Shown here: positions 10,819 through 19,370 of the stretch, one piece after another | Position numbering within the stretch: the first letter of the stretch is position 1 | Layout: the number at the start of each line of letters is the position of its first letter | IMG/VR virus record: IMGVR_UViG_3300012356_000008 | Coordinates: 1-21,109 of that record | Source: a virus | Reading direction: 5' to 3' (one strand) | DNA length: 21,109 nt | Notes under the pieces: model-generated | Seen by the model: the letters and a program-made list of their open reading frames with translations, nothing else | Told to the model about the DNA's origin: nothing | The model's database searches: none | Program-made: the position numbers and the translations under genes

Positions 10819-10949
10819 TCGTCCCGGAGCTAGAAGCAAAGCTAGCAGAATCAGACATCACACGTTGGATGGCCTATTTCATCCTGAAGCAAGAAGATGA
10901 ACAGGCAGCGATAGACAAAGCTAGGGAAGAAGCGAAAAGAACTACATGA
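10366..10949 (+). CDS. Tail assembly chaperone -1 frameshift fusion (gpGT-like)
   Basis: A -1 slip at A_AAA_AAT (10749-10755) gives a product of about 194 residues. The first 130 come from the upstream frame and about 64 come from the codons starting at 10755, which are open to the TGA at 10947-10949. The added part contains LIVPELEAKLAESDITRWM and AYFILKQEDEQAAIDKARE, a short helical domain with a Trp and a Glu/Lys-rich end like known gpT extensions. That TGA overlaps the tape measure ATG (ATGA). Without the slip, 127 bases before the tape measure gene would be unused in an otherwise gapless region. This is established biology for lambda-like siphophages; its use here is inferred from sequence. 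Confidence 0.78.
10749..10755 (+). promoter_or_regulatory. Programmed -1 frameshift slippery heptamer
   Basis: The heptamer A_AAA_AAT in the chaperone frame lies within a run of eight A (10747-10754) and fits the X_XXY_YYZ rule. A weak potential stem starts right after it (TTGAA 10756-10760 with TTCAA 10779-10783, plus CCG 10769-10771 with CGG 10776-10778). A stronger G/C-rich hairpin lies about 50 bases downstream (GGGAC/GTCCC around 10810-10825). Which element stimulates slippage, if any, cannot be told. Confidence 0.75.
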
Positions 10950-13474
10950 GTACCACGATAGCAGATTTGTTAGTCAATTTTCGAGGCGATATCGGTGATT
11001 TAGCCTCTAAAATTGCCGCGGCAAAAACCGACATGAATACCGTTACCGAGACCGCGCAATCGACAGGCGGTGGTATTCTCTCTGGTTTCAAGTCTGGCAT
11101 CAGTGGCATTGTCGATTTCGGGGCGAAAATTGGACAAACGGTCATAGGGATGCAAGGACTTGCACAGGGCGCGGTAGGACTAGCCTCTGCTCTGTTAGAA
11201 CCGAATGCCAGTATGGAACAAACGACCGTCGGATTTGAAACTCTGCTAGGCAAGGGAAAAGCCACACAAGACTTTCTGAGCCAACTCAAAGATTTTGCAG
11301 CCGCTACCCCCTTTGAGTTTCCAGAACTGGCAACCGACGCGCAACATATGCTGGCTTTTGGCTTCACGGCAAAAGAAGTTATACCGACACTCACTAATAT
11401 CGGGGACGCAATGGGCGCTATGGGTAAGAGTAGCGCCGATATTGATCATATCGTAGGAATCTTTGGACAGATGCATGCTGCTGGCAAGCTCAACGCGGGC
11501 GATATGATGCAATTAGCGGACGAAGGTATTCCTGCCTGGAAAATGCTTGCGGACGCTATGGGCAAGACCGTACCGGAAGTGCAGAAACTCACAACCTCTG
11601 GATTAATCCCTGCAGATACTGCAATCAAGGCCGTGTCAGAGGGTATGCATAAGATGTTCGGCGGGGGTATGGCTGCACAGGCTAACACCTTTAACGGCCT
11701 GTTGTCTACCCTGCAAGATAATGCTAGCGCGGCTCTACGCGCCTTCACTGGCCCTTTGTTCGATGCTGCTAAGTCAGGATTGACACAACTAGGGAACCTT
11801 GTCAGTAGCAAGCAATTTCAGGATTTTGCTACTAGTACAGGGCAAGCGATAGCGGTTGTTTTCCAGGAAATTGGCGGGTTTATTTCGGATAATGTCGTAC
11901 CTGCATTTCAGAAATTACAACCTGTTGTACAGCAATTTGTTGGTTATTTCCAATCCGATCAATTTGCCGGAATTTGGGCAGATTTTCAGACATTAGGCAA
12001 CCAGATACTTCAGATTGCCGGGGCATTTTTACAGGCGTCTGGCCCAGCGAACGATCTAGTAAGCGGGCCTTTGTCACTTTTGCCTGGTGTGTTGAGCGGC
12101 ATCTTGACGGCGGCTGACAACATTATTTTTCCGCTCGGTCAATTCTTGCTGTGGATGCAACAAGGGAGTCCGTGGGCTGAGGTAGTAAAAGACGCGCTGA
12201 TTGGTATAGGGGTAGCATTTGCAACTATCCAGATAGGCTCATTTCTGGCAACGTTACCAGCAGTGATTGCTGGGTTTATCGCGTGGGGTGTCGCGGCATG
12301 GGGAGCCGCGGCTGGTGTGATAGCTGCCACATGGCCTGTTTTAGCGATAGGAGCCGCTATAGCTGTTGTCGTCGCTATTATCATCCTTGCTGTCCAACAT
12401 TGGGGCGATATTGCAAAATGGCTGCAAGGGGCATGGTCTGGTATCGCTACGTTTTTTACTACTCTTTTTAAGGGGATAGGAGATAAATTTTCTCAACTTG
12501 GTTCATCTATGCAAAATAAAGCCACGGACATCAAAAGCGGGATAGGAGATAAGTTTTCTGATCTTGGCACGAATGTTCGTAATAAAACAACTGAAATGGG
12601 CAATGCGGTTGTAAACGGCTGGAAGTGGATGTATGATCATAATTATTATTTCAAGGCAATCGTAGATGAAGCAGTCAAAGTATGGGAACAATTCAAGACA
12701 TGGGCAGCCAATACATGGCAAGCAATCTCTGATAGGGTCATAGCGATCTGGCAGAATATTCAGCGACGAGCGCATGATACCTGGCAGACTGTATCAGACG
12801 CGATAAAAACAGCCGTAACCACTGCCGTGCAATGGCTTCAATCGATCTGGACAACCGCTACCACGTGGCTTACTACGCAGTGGAATAAAATCACTTCGCT
12901 CGCCTCGTCCGTGTGGGCCGCTGTTTCTGTTATCTTTGCAAGCATATGGACGCGCTATATCTCGGGTCCTCTCACTTCATTGTGGAATCAAATCCAGGGA
13001 TGGTTTACTGGCATAGGTAAGGGTGCTCAACAAGGGGGCCAAAACTTTATTAGTATGCTTGCAAACAGTATTAGTTCAGGAGCGGGGGCGATATGGAATG
13101 CTGTGACTGGAATCGCAAACACGATATGGTCTGCTTTAGGGTTTCATTCACCGCCGAAAGGCGGGCCGCTTGCTGACTCCGATAAATATATGCCGCGTTT
13201 TATCAATATCCTCAGCACTGGCCTGACTGCAGGCGCTCCACAAGTCGCGAAGGCATCAGCAATTGTTGCACAGCAGATGGCTTATCCTATACGCCCGAGT
13301 GCAACAGCAGTAGCCTCATCAATAGCACCTGTCATGGCTATGCAAGGGAGTGCAGGCGGGCAAGGGCAAACAATTATCTTAGAGGTTGATGGAATGGTAC
13401 TAGCAAAGATAAATAACAAAAATACTGACAAACTGGTCAGATTAAAGCTAGGAAGTAAAGGACGCGTAGCATGA
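10946..13474 (+). CDS. Tail tape measure protein
   Basis: This 842-residue protein follows the frameshifted chaperone and sets tail length. Residues about 90-275 match the tape measure N-terminal domain: MEQTTVGFETLLG, FAAATPFEFPELATDAQ, LNAGDMMQLADEGIPAWKML, then GGMAAQANTFNGLLSTLQDN. Residues about 412-485 are strongly hydrophobic with two or more possible membrane segments, common in tape measures that help DNA enter the cell. Two 22-residue repeats lie at about 510-560. Residues about 580-690 are helical with Trp recurring at near-regular spacing. The end has LGFHSPPKGGPLADSDKYMP, a usual C-terminal motif. By the usual 0.15 nm per residue the tail would be roughly 125 nm. No lysozyme or peptidase motif was seen. 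Confidence 0.92.
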   Translation: MSTTIADLLVNFRGDIGDLASKIAAAKTDMNTVTETAQSTGGGILSGFKSGISGIVDFGAKIGQTVIGMQGLAQGAVGLASALLEPNASMEQTTVGFETLLGKGKATQDFLSQLKDFAAATPFEFPELATDAQHMLAFGFTAKEVIPTLTNIGDAMGAMGKSSADIDHIVGIFGQMHAAGKLNAGDMMQLADEGIPAWKMLADAMGKTVPEVQKLTTSGLIPADTAIKAVSEGMHKMFGGGMAAQANTFNGLLSTLQDNASAALRAFTGPLFDAAKSGLTQLGNLVSSKQFQDFATSTGQAIAVVFQEIGGFISDNVVPAFQKLQPVVQQFVGYFQSDQFAGIWADFQTLGNQILQIAGAFLQASGPANDLVSGPLSLLPGVLSGILTAADNIIFPLGQFLLWMQQGSPWAEVVKDALIGIGVAFATIQIGSFLATLPAVIAGFIAWGVAAWGAAAGVIAATWPVLAIGAAIAVVVAIIILAVQHWGDIAKWLQGAWSGIATFFTTLFKGIGDKFSQLGSSMQNKATDIKSGIGDKFSDLGTNVRNKTTEMGNAVVNGWKWMYDHNYYFKAIVDEAVKVWEQFKTWAANTWQAISDRVIAIWQNIQRRAHDTWQTVSDAIKTAVTTAVQWLQSIWTTATTWLTTQWNKITSLASSVWAAVSVIFASIWTRYISGPLTSLWNQIQGWFTGIGKGAQQGGQNFISMLANSISSGAGAIWNAVTGIANTIWSALGFHSPPKGGPLADSDKYMPRFINILSTGLTAGAPQVAKASAIVAQQMAYPIRPSATAVASSIAPVMAMQGSAGGQGQTIILEVDGMVLAKINNKNTDKLVRLKLGSKGRVA
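12473..12604 (+). repeat. Tandem 66-bp repeat inside the tape measure gene
   Basis: Two adjacent units encode GIGDKFSQLGSSMQNKATDI and GIGDKFSDLGTNVRNKTTEM (22-residue period, 12473-12538 and 12539-12604). The DNA copies have diverged (for example GGATAGGAGATAAATTTTCT versus GGATAGGAGATAAGTTTTCT), so the duplication is not recent. Gains or losses of such units would change tail length in small steps. Confidence 0.75.
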
Positions 13475-14310
13475 GACTCTTTTTACCAGATTATAAAGAA
13501 GTAGCATTCCCTGAATATTGGGATAGGCCAGCTTCAAAGCGGCCTCAGACCTTGCAAGAAGTATGTGATATGCTGCTTCCTTTGCCAGGAATACGCGGTA
13601 TATGGGAAATTATCGCCAGTGATGCCAGGACGGGCGAAATACTTGAACGTTCCATTTACAAGAACGCGATCACTGACGTGGGCGCTCAGGATGCCATAGG
13701 GAATCTGTTTGCTGCAACAGGCGCTGCATTCAATCCAATGAACGTGATGTGCATTAGCACAGACGCCGGGTCTAGCACGCTCACGACAGCCCTCACAGCA
13801 GGTACACCGCCCGGAAGTGCAACTCTTGCAGTGGCTGCCCTGCCAGCCGCTATCCCTGCAAACGCTGTACTGAAACTGGATTATGGTACCGGCTCTGAAG
13901 AGTCATGTGCGACGACAGCGGGCGCTTCAGCCGCTGCTACCAGCATAACTGGCATCACAGCGGTAGGTGGTGGTACATTTACACCTGCCTTTAGCCATGC
14001 TATCGGAAAAACGGTAGTTCCCGTTGCCCTGGTCACTGATAATCCATCAGGCACGCCAACGGGCGGCGTGTACTTGTCCCTCGTCGGTGGTGATTATTCA
14101 TCCATAACAGGAACTGGCATAGGCAACCGGACAAGAACTATCACAAAAAAGTTTCCCGGCGCATCTACTGCAGCCGCTACGTATACGTGGTGTCGGCTGG
14201 CTAACGCGAATCCTATTGTATCGGGCGCGGTAGGCGCGTCTTGTATTGTGCCGCAAGCAGTCATTAACAGCATAACGGATCAGACTTTTGCGGTGGTCAT
14301 AAAATTATAA
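13471..14310 (+). CDS. Tail protein in distal-tail position, with inserted module
   Basis: This 279-residue protein overlaps the tape measure stop (ATGA) and precedes the tail hub, the slot usually held by the distal tail protein, but I do not recognise a Dit fold. The first 60 residues are mixed (PDYKEVAFPEYWDRP, then LPGIRGIWEIIASDARTGE). The region after has KNAITDVGAQDAIGNLF. Residues about 105-185 form a module with TALTAGTPPGSATLAVAALP, ANAVLKLDYGTGSEE and a TFTPAFSHAIGKTVV end, a pattern met inside several unrelated phage structural proteins. The surrounding sequence (CISTDAGSS and later RTRTITKKFPG) reads as one interrupted beta-rich domain. It could equally be a tail-tip or fibre-base protein. 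Confidence 0.6.
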   Translation: MRLFLPDYKEVAFPEYWDRPASKRPQTLQEVCDMLLPLPGIRGIWEIIASDARTGEILERSIYKNAITDVGAQDAIGNLFAATGAAFNPMNVMCISTDAGSSTLTTALTAGTPPGSATLAVAALPAAIPANAVLKLDYGTGSEESCATTAGASAAATSITGITAVGGGTFTPAFSHAIGKTVVPVALVTDNPSGTPTGGVYLSLVGGDYSSITGTGIGNRTRTITKKFPGASTAAATYTWCRLANANPIVSGAVGASCIVPQAVINSITDQTFAVVIKL

Positions 14311-14327: not shown

Positions 14328-17300
14328 ATGGCTATCACATTTGACGCGGCTACTGGAAATAAGGTTGCAAGTGGAACCACGAACACGTGGTCGCATACCG
14401 TCGCGTCTAGCCAAAGCAATCAAATCCTTGTCGTGAGTGTCGATTCAGGAGCCAGCATATCGGGTATCACCTACAACAGTGTCGCCATGACACAACTTAC
14501 CTCAATCACCTATGGCGGCAGTGAGATACTTTCGCTGTGGTATCTAGTAGCGCCCGCGCAAGGGGCTCACAACGTCGTTATAACCGCTAGCGGAACCACG
14601 TTTATTGTCGGTGTTTCCGCTTCCTATTACAACGTCGCACAAACAAGCATGTTTGGAACGGCTGTAACCAACTCAGGAACCGGAACAGCTAGTACCAATA
14701 CGGTTACTACCTCCAACACCAATCAATGGGTGATTGATACCGTCAACAATGCAGCGGCTAGCACGGATACAGCCACAGCCAGCCAGAACAAGCGTTTCCA
14801 ACCAGCAACCAGTGGAGCCGCTGAAGGCGATATTGTAGCGACCGGCTCCAATATGACGCTTACGTGGTCGTTCACGTCAGGCAACTGGGCACAGATCTCA
14901 GTTGCGATGTTCATTGCGACGACCAATTTCACGACCACAATCACTGATACACAACTGACTTCATTCTCTGCTGAAGCCAGTACAGTACAAACCAATGTGA
15001 TCACCGAGCGACTCACTTCATTTACAGCAGAGGCAAGTGCAAGTCAAACAAACGTAATCACCGAACAACTCACCACGTTTTCAGCCAATGCCACGGTGAC
15101 AAAGAGTCTGGCATCCGTTCCCACAGGCATTCATGTGTTTATCAGTGGCGTAGAAGTGATGATTTATGAGGGATCATTCGAGATTGACGACTCTGTAAAT
15201 GCGGTTTCAACATGCACATTTACGATTCGAGATGATTCAGGGACTAACCACTACACAAAACGACAGCAGGTTCTAGTCATCGATAGCGTCAAAGGATTGG
15301 TTTATAGCGGATACATCAACTCAGTAGAAGAAGATAGAGAGAGCCCGAATACCCTGATTAAATCCGCTGTAGCCATACGAGATAATCATGATCTGGCTGA
15401 AAAGCGAACTTATCCAGGACCAGACTTCACCAATGCCTACGCGGGAACGATTGCTACCTCTCTCTTAGACATTCTTGCTGTGGAAGGCGTGACTGCGCAA
15501 TATGCCAATCGCAGAGAAACCACGCAAGGGCAGTTTGCATTAGGGACGCTTACAGGCGTTACATCCGCTACGAATGTAGGGGATGGGAACCTGGAATTGA
15601 GCCCAGCAGGGACGCCTGTAACCATCATAGAGAGTACCACGTCCGACTTTTCAAGTGGGACATTAACTACCTGCACAGCGGCGAATAACACGCTCACAGC
15701 CACGCCGACGAATACGATCAAATTGACAGGGCAAATGAATGTCGCGGGAATCAGTAATCCAGCCGTCTACTACAAGATTTACTCAGGTTCTTACACGCTA
15801 CAGTCGCGCGATTTCCTGCACTACAGCGTCTGGATTGATGACGCTTCACCAGAGAAAAAAGCAGCCGTTGATATTATTTTTACCGATGGAACCTCTTTAC
15901 GTGATGTGACCAACTTCGGCTATGTCGATGATAATGATATCTTACCAGCGGCAAATGCTGACCTGGGAGGGTTAGCTAGCGGTCGGTGGTATACACGTCT
16001 GATGAATATTTCAGGAAATATTAAGACTGTTGCGTATGTGTCCGTTGCCCTGGCAGGGACACAAACAGGCGTCTATACTGCCTACTTCAAAAATATTGAA
16101 ATCCGCAATTATCCTTTAGACAGGTGGCTCAACCCAAATCAAAGTACGACATTGCGCATCACTATTTTCAATGGCACATTGCAAACACCTGCTCAGCAAC
16201 TACAGTCCATTGGCTACGAAAACTGTGCACTCACGATCGTACCGACCTACGACCTGCCTGTTTATCCAGCGGTAGGAAATGGCCAGGGAGATGCGAATAG
16301 CATCCTGACCAGCTATCCATCCCCGCTCAACATGCCCTATCGCGTGTCATCTGCATACAGCATCAGCGCCGGGGGCATTCTGAGAGCAAGCTTGATTAAT
16401 TGGAGTGCAACGGAGCCCGGCAATACAGCAGCCGATACGCAAAAAACAAAGGCTGTAGTGAAATATCAACTGGACAATGGCGCGCTCGTAGAATGCACCA
16501 ATGGGCAATCCTTGCCTGGCCTTGTGCCAGGGATGAACTTAAGCAGTCGCACGCTTACCCTCTATGAAGAGTTTTACGCCTTGCAAGGGGCATCACCAGA
16601 GGTAGCGCCGTCTTTCAATTCGGTTGTCGTGGCCGTGCAACCATCGTACGCATGCACGAAGTCTGATGTGGCTTACACGACCGTGTGGAGCGCAGGTGAA
16701 GCCGGGACAACCTTCAGTTCTACCGTCGCACTACAAAATGCGCTCACCTTGATTGGGGCAACGCGCAATTGGGACTTCTTGCAGGTTGCCGGGCAAACGT
16801 CGTTCCTGGGATCAGCAGGTGATACGCTCTTCAATCAATCGTATCAATTCGGGAATCCGTCTGCTGGGAATGAATCAAAAACACGATTTGATTTCGCAGG
16901 GACGTACACTAATTGCACCATTGAATGTGATGTCAACATTCAATCGGACATACAAATCGGCGTGGTGTACCGATCCACTAACTTCAGTACGAATAATGGC
17001 TCCTATGCGTACGTTGCGTGGGTAAGTGCCTCTGCGATAACTCTAAAAAGAGGTACCAATACCACAGGCGGCGGCGCGGGAACAACGATTAGCACAGTAG
17101 GAATCACGCTCACAGGTGGGAGTTGGCATAAGCTCAAAGTGATTGTGAATGGTTCAAGTCATCAGGTATTTCTTGATGATGTACGATTTATCAATAGCAC
17201 CGATGCGACCTTTAGCGGTAGCGGCAGCGTTGGCGTCTTTGGCGTCTCGCCAACACAGGCGTACCCACAATTCAACTTCGACAATTTCGGCGTGATGCCA

Positions 17301-19370
17301 CTACTCACGGGGACGTGGCTATCACCGGCTGTTTCGCTTACAGCCGCAAGTACGTACGGCAATAGTTTCATTGCCTGGCGTGATCGGTCGGAAAGCCCAG
17401 CGTCTAACGATAGTATCCTGGTAGAGATGACTATCAATGGTGGGAGCACCTGGACAGCCTGCGCCAATGGCACAGCGCTTCCAGTGTTTAATGTTGGCAG
17501 CAATCTTTCAGGTGTTTCTTTGCAGATTCGTATCACGCTCACCACCACGACGGCTTCAAAAATGCCAGCCATTGATACACTGTGGTGGCTCATCACAGGC
17601 GGATTTTCTAGCTCCGGTACCCGTACCAGCCTTGCACTGCCTATGACCGGAGTAGGGCGACTCGGTAGTTCTGTCGTTGCCTGGAATGCCACGCTTCCGA
17701 CGGGCACAACGCTCGGAGTGGATGTTGCGTTTGACGGCGGCTCATGGGTAGATGTGACCAGTGGCAATGGACAGCCCTTCCCTGTGTTTACCGGGCAGGT
17801 GGCACCAGCTATCGACACGTTTGCCAGCAACACAAGCGCCAACTATACCAATACAAATCGTTCTGGGGGCTCTGTAGCCACTGTGACGTATAACACAGCC
17901 AATAGTCGTCTCACACTGACGGGGGGCTCTAAGGCGCTCTATATCGCTAACAGTCCAACCAATACGGGCGATGTTGAGCTGCTCTTCGACATGGATGAAA
18001 GCGATAGCGGGGGCCTGGTGTGGCATTATCAAGATACAGATAATTTCTATGAGTTGGTGGTAGCTGATGCTTCTGCTTCTGTGAATCCGAATACAATCAG
18101 TCTCTTTAGAATTTCTTCAGGCACACGAACACAGTTAGGCGCAACGACGGCTATCTCATTTGCCAGGGGGACGTACCACCGCTTTAAAGTCCACTACGAA
18201 ATAAATATCCATCTGGCAACCTGTTATATCGATGGCTTGCAAGTACTACAAGTGACTGCCATCCTGCCTGCTACGGGCAAATCTGGACTCAGAAATGACG
18301 GTGGCACATCTCGCTATTATTCACTGCAAATACAACCTTTGAGTGCAGATGTCAGCTCGGATTACGTCCAAACACGATTGAGACTAGCCAGTACTGATCC
18401 AACTGTCACACCGCAAATATCTGACCATACTATAGCGGCGTATGGCACAACGATACAGCCAGGCGCGCTTATTCCCCAAACGGACTATATTTTCAAATAT
18501 ATCAATGAGTGCTTTGACGATTTAATCAAACAATCCTCAGCAAGTGGCGGACAGTGGTGGTGGAATATCGACAAGTATCTTGTCGCTTCCATGCTGCCAA
18601 ACGCGGGCATACCAGCTCCCTGGCTCGGTTCGTCAGTACTCAATCCTGACGGGACTGCTGACTTTCTTGACGCTGGCTTGAAAGTCATTGATGAGTCGGA
18701 CCTGTACAGAAACAGGCAGATCATCACGAATGTCATGGATACCGCGTCCATCAATGAAACTAGGGCGGGCGATGGTATCTCACGAACATGGACATTCAAG
18801 TACAACTGGGCTAGCGCGCCTGCTATCACCGTGAATGGTGTTATTGCTACCGTGGGTGTGAAGGGCGTGGACACAGGCAAGATGTTCTACTACGCGGTAG
18901 ACGATCCTATCATTGCAGTGGATGACAGCATCGCAACGTACACAGCCGCGTATGCTATCAAGTTCGTAGGCACAGGCCAGTTCCTCACCTACAGCCAATA
19001 TGACAATCTGACAGAACAAGCTGCTGTAGCACTTAAAGACAACACCAGCGGCATTGTCGAAAATGTAGAGGATGGCACTGGCCTCACAAAGGCAGCGGGT
19101 GATGCTCTTGCACAGGCGCGCGTGAAGCAATACGGCGTGCGTGGCAAGAAATTAGAAGCCACGACTTTGAGAGAAGGGTTAGCGCCTGGCATGCTCTTGC
19201 CTGCCTTTATTCCTGAACATGATTTGTTTGACACACTCATGCTTATCAGAAATATCAAAACGCGCTTGACGCCAGACGGCGCGACTGGCCTGCATAAGTT
19301 CTGGTATACCATAGAGGCTATATCCGGCGCAGACATTGGTGACTGGACAGAAATGTATAGAAAGCGATAA
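14328..19370 (+). CDS. Giant modular tail hub/tail-tip adhesion protein (1680 aa)
   Basis: A start 6 bases after AAGGA opens a single 1680-codon frame. Residues 1-200 form an extracellular-type beta domain (SITYGGSEILSLWYLVAPAQ and similar). Residues about 205-260 are three short repeats. A hub N-terminal part lies at about 264-420 (GIHVFISGVEVMIYEGSFEI, DSVKGLVYSGYINSVEEDR, NAYAGTIATSLLDILAVEGV) and a hub C-terminal part at about 1372-1680 (FKYINECFDDLIKQSS, GGQWWWNIDKYLVAS, LRE..APG.LLP). Between them lie a jelly-roll CBM-like module (428-598), three copies of a roughly 95-residue beta module with Trp and NG.-LP signatures (about 675-771, 998-1091, 1099-1157 plus 1340-1371) and two LamG-like domains (about 849-990 and 1161-1338), the second nested in the third copy. 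It probably binds host surface glycans at the tail tip. No catalytic motif was found. Boundaries are approximate. Confidence 0.8.
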   Translation: MAITFDAATGNKVASGTTNTWSHTVASSQSNQILVVSVDSGASISGITYNSVAMTQLTSITYGGSEILSLWYLVAPAQGAHNVVITASGTTFIVGVSASYYNVAQTSMFGTAVTNSGTGTASTNTVTTSNTNQWVIDTVNNAAASTDTATASQNKRFQPATSGAAEGDIVATGSNMTLTWSFTSGNWAQISVAMFIATTNFTTTITDTQLTSFSAEASTVQTNVITERLTSFTAEASASQTNVITEQLTTFSANATVTKSLASVPTGIHVFISGVEVMIYEGSFEIDDSVNAVSTCTFTIRDDSGTNHYTKRQQVLVIDSVKGLVYSGYINSVEEDRESPNTLIKSAVAIRDNHDLAEKRTYPGPDFTNAYAGTIATSLLDILAVEGVTAQYANRRETTQGQFALGTLTGVTSATNVGDGNLELSPAGTPVTIIESTTSDFSSGTLTTCTAANNTLTATPTNTIKLTGQMNVAGISNPAVYYKIYSGSYTLQSRDFLHYSVWIDDASPEKKAAVDIIFTDGTSLRDVTNFGYVDDNDILPAANADLGGLASGRWYTRLMNISGNIKTVAYVSVALAGTQTGVYTAYFKNIEIRNYPLDRWLNPNQSTTLRITIFNGTLQTPAQQLQSIGYENCALTIVPTYDLPVYPAVGNGQGDANSILTSYPSPLNMPYRVSSAYSISAGGILRASLINWSATEPGNTAADTQKTKAVVKYQLDNGALVECTNGQSLPGLVPGMNLSSRTLTLYEEFYALQGASPEVAPSFNSVVVAVQPSYACTKSDVAYTTVWSAGEAGTTFSSTVALQNALTLIGATRNWDFLQVAGQTSFLGSAGDTLFNQSYQFGNPSAGNESKTRFDFAGTYTNCTIECDVNIQSDIQIGVVYRSTNFSTNNGSYAYVAWVSASAITLKRGTNTTGGGAGTTISTVGITLTGGSWHKLKVIVNGSSHQVFLDDVRFINSTDATFSGSGSVGVFGVSPTQAYPQFNFDNFGVMPLLTGTWLSPAVSLTAASTYGNSFIAWRDRSESPASNDSILVEMTINGGSTWTACANGTALPVFNVGSNLSGVSLQIRITLTTTTASKMPAIDTLWWLITGGFSSSGTRTSLALPMTGVGRLGSSVVAWNATLPTGTTLGVDVAFDGGSWVDVTSGNGQPFPVFTGQVAPAIDTFASNTSANYTNTNRSGGSVATVTYNTANSRLTLTGGSKALYIANSPTNTGDVELLFDMDESDSGGLVWHYQDTDNFYELVVADASASVNPNTISLFRISSGTRTQLGATTAISFARGTYHRFKVHYEINIHLATCYIDGLQVLQVTAILPATGKSGLRNDGGTSRYYSLQIQPLSADVSSDYVQTRLRLASTDPTVTPQISDHTIAAYGTTIQPGALIPQTDYIFKYINECFDDLIKQSSASGGQWWWNIDKYLVASMLPNAGIPAPWLGSSVLNPDGTADFLDAGLKVIDESDLYRNRQIITNVMDTASINETRAGDGISRTWTFKYNWASAPAITVNGVIATVGVKGVDTGKMFYYAVDDPIIAVDDSIATYTAAYAIKFVGTGQFLTYSQYDNLTEQAAVALKDNTSGIVENVEDGTGLTKAAGDALAQARVKQYGVRGKKLEATTLREGLAPGMLLPAFIPEHDLFDTLMLIRNIKTRLTPDGATGLHKFWYTIEAISGADIGDWTEMYRKR
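14940..15110 (+). repeat. Three 19-20 residue repeats in the hub protein linker
   Basis: Units encode ITDTQLTSFSAEASTVQTNV (14940-14999), ITERLTSFTAEASASQTNV (15000-15056) and a shorter ITEQLTTFSANATVTKSL (from 15057). Codons differ between copies, so the repeats are protein-level and not recent duplications. They link the N-terminal beta domain to the hub core and may be a flexible or beta-strand spacer. Confidence 0.75.

Follow-up and report, generated by a model that had tools for sequence, protein, structure and literature searches.

We propose that the gene at positions 14328-19370 (plus strand) encodes the central hub of a viral tail tip, and that an array of lectin-type and repeated beta domains, inserted in a loop of hub domain II, points outward from the hub, binds glycans and perhaps takes part in opening the tail tube; for this explanation as a whole we estimate a probability of about 0.7. 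The gene lies in the window, by which we mean the whole stretch of 21,109 nucleotides analyzed here (IMGVR_UViG_3300012356_000008, a 21.1-kb viral fragment from environmental DNA), and is a single uninterrupted ORF of 1680 amino acids, open over its full length. Its nearest relative, of 1681 amino acids and 94% identical, is found in the IMG/VR contigs 3300012354 and 3300012350.

Genomic context

The genes 5' of the hub gene encode portal, capsid, tail and tape measure proteins. The hub gene is placed after the tape measure gene (10946-13474, plus strand; PF20155, E 2.1e-24), with one gene (13471-14310, plus strand) between them for which no family match was found. Relatives of this intervening gene, which is directly 5' of the hub in the window, adjoin the hub in other contigs and are found 3' of it in L017, L028, L030, L042, and L043, so that tail-tip genes shift position around the hub. 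No tail-sheath gene was recognized among the window genes, except that one tail protein had a weak PHROG match, which makes a siphovirus the likelier reading; the window virus is a tailed virus and probably a siphovirus. Two scans of genome_contigs for relatives, carried out as a host search, found none.

A tail hub interrupted in domain II

The sequence-only reading of this gene had described a gp27/Tal-like hub core in two parts, at residues 264-420 and from about 1372 onward, with some 950 residues between them. The division of the hub is confirmed by insert-free relatives, in which the halves meet at one conserved site and one of which models as a gp27/gp44-like hub. By profile, the hub halves of the window are found at residues 270-393 and 1375-1679. 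The N-half (residues 270-390; 15135-15497, plus strand; profile E 2e-44), delimited by the insert-free junction, comprises domain I and the first helix of domain II; the C-half (residues 1375-1680; 18450-19367, plus strand), assigned by profile and from the fold of an insert-free relative, comprises the rest of domain II and domains III and IV. A tblastn search against annotated phages identified vir515_00034 (611 amino acids), which matches window residues 279-390 and 1360-1679 with no gap between them.

A profile of the hub C-half retrieved 80 loci in IMG/VR. The gap between the two hub-half profiles measures -2 to 31 residues in the insert-free hubs and 944-1623 residues in the inserted ones (981 in the window), with L056 as an outlier at 174 residues. 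The junction is common throughout, reading "..EGVTLG-TI.DGPTI.." in insert-free hubs and "..EGVTA-[array]-TIQPGALIPQ.." in inserted ones, and this places the inserted array, which is missing from the insert-free relatives, at about residues 391-1373 (15498-18446, plus strand) rather than at residues 421-1371. The C-half thus begins where it had been placed, but the insert starts near residue 391 instead of 420, and the insert, large as had been claimed, is now sized at about 983 amino acids.

In place of the joined segments 264-420 and 1372-1680, two models were calculated, one of the insert-free hub L050 and one of the contiguous window segment 264-1463. The AlphaFold2 model of L050 (480 amino acids, 30 rows) has a mean pLDDT of 81 and is of high confidence up to residue ~415; it matches the solved hubs of HFTV1 (Z 23.9), MuSo2 (43-kDa protein, 22.9), Mu gp44 (21.6), 80alpha (18.9), and T4 gp27 (17.8). 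On this predicted structure, L050 is a four-sub-domain central hub of the gp27/Mu gp44 type. In the model of the window segment (1200 amino acids, 33 rows, pLDDT 83), strand-helix precedes the insert and strand-helix-strand-strand follows, the same order as in the insert-free model, and the secondary structure of the models puts the window insert in hub domain II. The predicted hub fold was in this way supported indirectly, through an insert-free relative that folds as one hub and a window segment in which the order of strands and helices is retained to either side of the array. A search of PDB sequences with the hub profile returned nothing meaningful, so that the identity of the hub rests on fold; the window halves flanking the array match the profiles of the hub family to which L050 belongs, and are assigned with it to the gp27/gp44-like hubs (Tal, BHP).

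Composition of the inserted array

The order of the array is beta-sandwich, module 1, LamG1, module 2, first part of module 3, LamG2, and second part of module 3. The beta-sandwich (residues ~416-600; 15573-16127, plus strand) is conserved in the family and is a mostly confident all-beta region of the window segment model. A CBM-like jelly roll had been described here from sequence; the model bears out an all-beta sandwich, but searches of Pfam and the PDB found no sequence resembling residues 416-600, and the CBM identity is putative, judged from appearance. The other array components described in that reading, three copies of a beta module and two LamG-like domains, were all recovered, the former by profile and the latter by fold match. 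Beta module 1 (residues 672-784; 16341-16679, plus strand) and beta module 2 (residues 1005-1099, or 998/1005-1100 by profile; 17340-17624, plus strand) are homologous, with an hhalign probability of 99.9%.

LamG1 (residues 811-992; 16758-17303, plus strand), identified by a VIA fold match, is CBM66-like. Its fold matches the CBM66 of Bacillus subtilis levanase (4azz) with Z 21.3 at 1.9 A over 150 aligned residues and 21% identity; a weak sequence match to the same domain, which in levanase is part of an enzyme, was obtained in a PDB profile search (E 2.3e-6), and PF06439 matches with E 8.2e-7. LamG1 has both the CBM66 fold and sequence similarity to CBM66, and fructan binding itself is a prediction from the fold. 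LamG2 (residues 1155-1341; 17790-18350, plus strand), likewise found by a VIA fold match, has a ConA-like lectin fold for which the lectin domain of galactocerebrosidase gave Z 20.2, with legume lectins scoring lower. A viral structure library yielded many LamG-bearing minor tail proteins and no hub with a window-type array.

Selection on each part was estimated by comparing the window with its 94%-identical relative, L004. The dN/dS is 0.075 over the whole gene and 0.018-0.115 by part, and synonymous changes dominate everywhere: the beta-sandwich has a value of 0.03, LamG1, the part most conserved between the two, 0.018, LamG2 0.09, and hub C 0.115. The values of 0.02-0.10 for the inserted array correspond to purifying selection, and by this per-part comparison the array is at least as constrained as the hub.

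Proposed function of the array

Comparison and modeling show that hub domain II carries about 980 inserted residues, placed in the loop that follows its first helix. The hub halves would close into a normal hub, which, by homology, would form a trimer capping the tail tube; with the array projecting from a surface loop of each subunit, three arrays would stand around the tip and could attach with avidity to polysaccharide on the host surface. The beta modules would serve as spacers and keep the two lectin-type domains in place. Opening of the tube may be aided by glycan binding as well; this is the least certain and a speculative step, suggested by the rooting of the array in domain II, since the domain II insertion of T5 pivots as the tube opens (PMC10038345). 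That the window array binds glycans as its receptors we infer from the modeled folds.

Tail proteins frequently reuse lectin-type folds, and the very low dN/dS of LamG1 would be as compatible with an internal contact as with a fixed ligand; both observations could be accommodated if the array were mainly a structural skirt or spacer positioning other tail proteins, with lectin folds acting as scaffolds that bind no sugar. We consider such a role unlikely, given how closely LamG1 matches the fructan-binding CBM66 and given the lectin- and hydrolase-type domains that are swapped on the same hub, which point to sugar targets.

LamG2 inside beta module 3

The preferred reading, an array inserted in a hub and itself bearing a nested lectin, draws further on the structure of module 3. 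A module profile for which only intact modules 1 and 2 were used matches module 3 as two pieces: profile positions 1-53 before LamG2 (residues 1099-1152; 17622-17783, plus strand) and positions 59-91 after it (residues 1340-1370; 18345-18437, plus strand). The LamG2 fold match fills this interruption to within a few residues. The second piece is weak in any single sequence, yet it is found in 35 of 37 homologues; turned into a family profile, it scores 42.8 against module 1 and 43.7 against module 2, with 60 column-shuffled versions reaching at most 13.2. The module profile thus resumes after LamG2 family-wide and far above shuffled controls, and the earlier suggestion that the second LamG-like domain interrupts the third module is upheld.

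The weakness of this second piece in a single sequence is what speaks for a hub that is not split at all, in which successive domains follow one another in line and the N- and C-terminal hub similarities belong to two unrelated domains. This is very improbable: the family profile test supports an interrupted module 3, the insert-free relatives join the halves at one site, with one of them folding as a single hub, and linear unrelated domains are contradicted by these homologues.

Distribution and history of the inserted hubs

The design is common to some 40 related sequences, and the domain order is kept in ~30 divergent viral contigs, most of which are 26-47% identical to the window. An assembly artefact or a chimeric contig, to which a metagenomic fragment might be open, is a negligible prospect for an architecture that recurs in this many contigs and in each part of which synonymous changes dominate. 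In a tree calculated on hub columns alone, a single clade (support 100/100) unites 37 rows with an inserted or split hub; L048 may go back to the same insert origin (support 34/73).

The two types of hub also differ at their C-terminus. A C-terminal tail of 55-156 amino acids is present in 39 of 40 insert-free hubs, the lone exception running off its contig, whereas the tail is of 14 amino acids or fewer in 30 of 32 inserted hubs and in all four split hubs; gain of the insert accompanies loss of the hub C-terminal tail. In the insert-free hubs L036, L039, L044, and L047, a motif like TLYPSTTLYP is common to the insertion-site loop and the C-terminal tail, and the tail often ends in CP...LFPC; the inserted hubs have neither the loop motif nor the tail motif.

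Several relatives carry other decorations. Both L025 and L031 have arrays with extra LamG_3 domains, and in L025:1541-7945 (residues 898-1311) one LamG following module 2 seems, as read from sequence, to be interrupted by another (Laminin_G_3, E 5.6e-26), at the loop where split relatives break. The outlier L056:6119-8080 has a single CBM4_9-like domain of ~150 amino acids (E 2.3e-5, just under the Pfam cut-off) in a neighboring hub loop, ~25 residues before the insertion site of the window; this is a small and separate hub decoration. Two LamG_3 domains precede the hub in L051, and weak glycoside-hydrolase-like matches precede it in L078 and L064. The latter (L064:344-7942) is a 2533-amino-acid hub whose 1140-amino-acid N-terminal extension resembles a pair of glycoside-hydrolase-like domains separated by a beta domain and repeats, the Pfam match being weak (GH42, E 0.066). 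L053 (7526-7951) and L060 have a second insertion of ~138 amino acids inside the hub C-half, without a match in Pfam, at a site that is also listed for L066. The hub behaves, as far as these sequence matches suggest, as a holder of sugar-directed modules.

Hubs divided between two genes

The array is divided between two ORFs in L026:775-7930, L027, L040:26-7942, L022:3-6039, and L033:3-7939. These split hubs represent four distinct types from several metagenomes, and the break is always at one point inside a LamG domain. Gene A encodes hub N, then the sandwich, module 1, LamG1 and module 2, and finally the first part of another LamG; gene C encodes the end of the broken LamG (read in sequence as "SGGFTLFANGTGT..YPDP"), module 3 with LamG2, and hub C, and opens with a domain of beta or LamG-like type and with short repeats that vary between contigs. 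Hub N is seen on gene A in L026/L027 and L040, and the contigs of L022 and L033 start within gene A; the hub domains are divided between two proteins in L026 and L040, and probably in L022 and L033. A single origin of the split hubs is compatible with a topology test (AU p 0.25).

Two genes, B1 and B2, are found between genes A and C in L026, L040, and L022, and homologues of both lie directly 3' of the unsplit L031 hub; neither B1 nor B2 of the split loci has a Pfam or PHROG family. An intron as the cause of the splitting was considered and rejected: the window and seven contigs, all split types included, gave no Rfam match at gathering thresholds, and the gap in L026 and L040 instead holds two conserved ORFs.

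Comparison with known tail tips

Hubs with inserted modules have been described as "evolved Tals" in the Streptococcus thermophilus phages SW13 and TP-778L (PMC7291167, PMC9437275). As proposed for the window, the modules of these gp27-like hubs are inserted on linkers and point away from the axis; however, the evolved Tal insert is between sub-domains 3 and 4 and has two modules read as lysins, whereas that of the window is in domain II, ~980 amino acids long, lectin-like and nested. The window hub, with modules placed inside its hub domain and with insert-free relatives, counts among the hubs of this kind. T5 BHP pb3 and lambda gpJ have a large hdII insertion with a further nested domain, the plug in T5 and FNIII-A in lambda gpJ (PMC10038345, PMC10721106). 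These insertions close the tube, while the window insert is made of lectin-type domains and module repeats; the insertion loop of the window is likely identical to the T5/lambda hdII loop. Mapping of the insertion site onto Mu gp44 gave a weak profile alignment, and profile mapping onto lambda gpJ/gpL gave none.

The nearest annotated hub, vir515_00034 (BK063672, host Methanosarcinales), has both halves in common with the window but no insert, and has instead a C-terminal extension of ~156 amino acids. Carbohydrate-type domains at the tail tip, as in the window, are also found in the HFTV1 BPH (9h4p) and the central fibre/BHP of mycobacteriophage Douge (8zdo-8zdq), with glycan binding proposed or shown; the predicted sugar-binding domain of HFTV1 follows the hub on its C-terminal side, and separate proteins carry the ConA-like domains of Douge. 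The hub domains of lambda (L, K, I, J) and RcGTA (13-15) are spread over two proteins, with genes between (PMC10721106). The split relatives resemble lambda gpL/gpJ and RcGTA gp13/gp15 in this respect, but their break is inside a LamG, with B1 and B2 between the two genes, and the window hub is one chain.

The architecture had been called extreme, which is justified for its size and nesting; it fails for the principle, since hub insertions, nested ones too, are known from T5, lambda and streptococcal phages. Modules inside gp27-like hubs and nested hub insertions are already known, and the window extends known tail-tip designs; what the window and its relatives add is the make-up and size of the domain II insert, the nesting of a lectin within one of several repeated modules, a clear empty-site series and hubs split between genes. 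Within one hub family there is a series from no insert through a single CBM4_9, a module array with a nested lectin and arrays with extra LamG domains to two-gene arrays, which makes the gain of receptor-binding parts and the division of a hub between two proteins, as in lambda, directly testable. Hub domain II would be a site that tolerates very large, putatively sugar-binding cargo. A tentative reading, which we regard as doubtful, is that the domain II loop is a growth point where lectins were inserted into earlier inserts to give a sensor arm that, on binding sugar, helps the tail to open, and that in some relatives a break within a lectin divided this growing arm over two genes, arriving by another route at a two-chain hub as in lambda gpL/gpJ and RcGTA gp13/gp15.

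The N-terminal domain and short repeats

A beta domain of ~200 residues and three short repeats had been noted before the hub, and both are present. Residues 1-202 (14328-14933, plus strand), a domain that is optional within the family, match PHROG 2106 "minor tail protein" with E 8.6e-10; the three repeats of ~19-20 amino acids (residues 203-262; 14934-15113, plus strand) were read in sequence. In two phages with an insert-free hub, L045 and L046, a separate 3' protein (L045:6969-8441 and L046:13240-14073) is headed by the N-terminal beta domain of the window (44% identity in L045); by homology, the window's domain is a putative mobile head domain. Repeats of 13-20 amino acids are present at residues 203-262 of the window, at residues ~197-380 of L007, which has more copies, and at the gene C N-termini of L022, L026, L033, and L040; their sequences are very different and their copy number ranges from 3 to more than 10. 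They sit between the beta-domain "head" and the hub or array, resembling a stalk of variable length.
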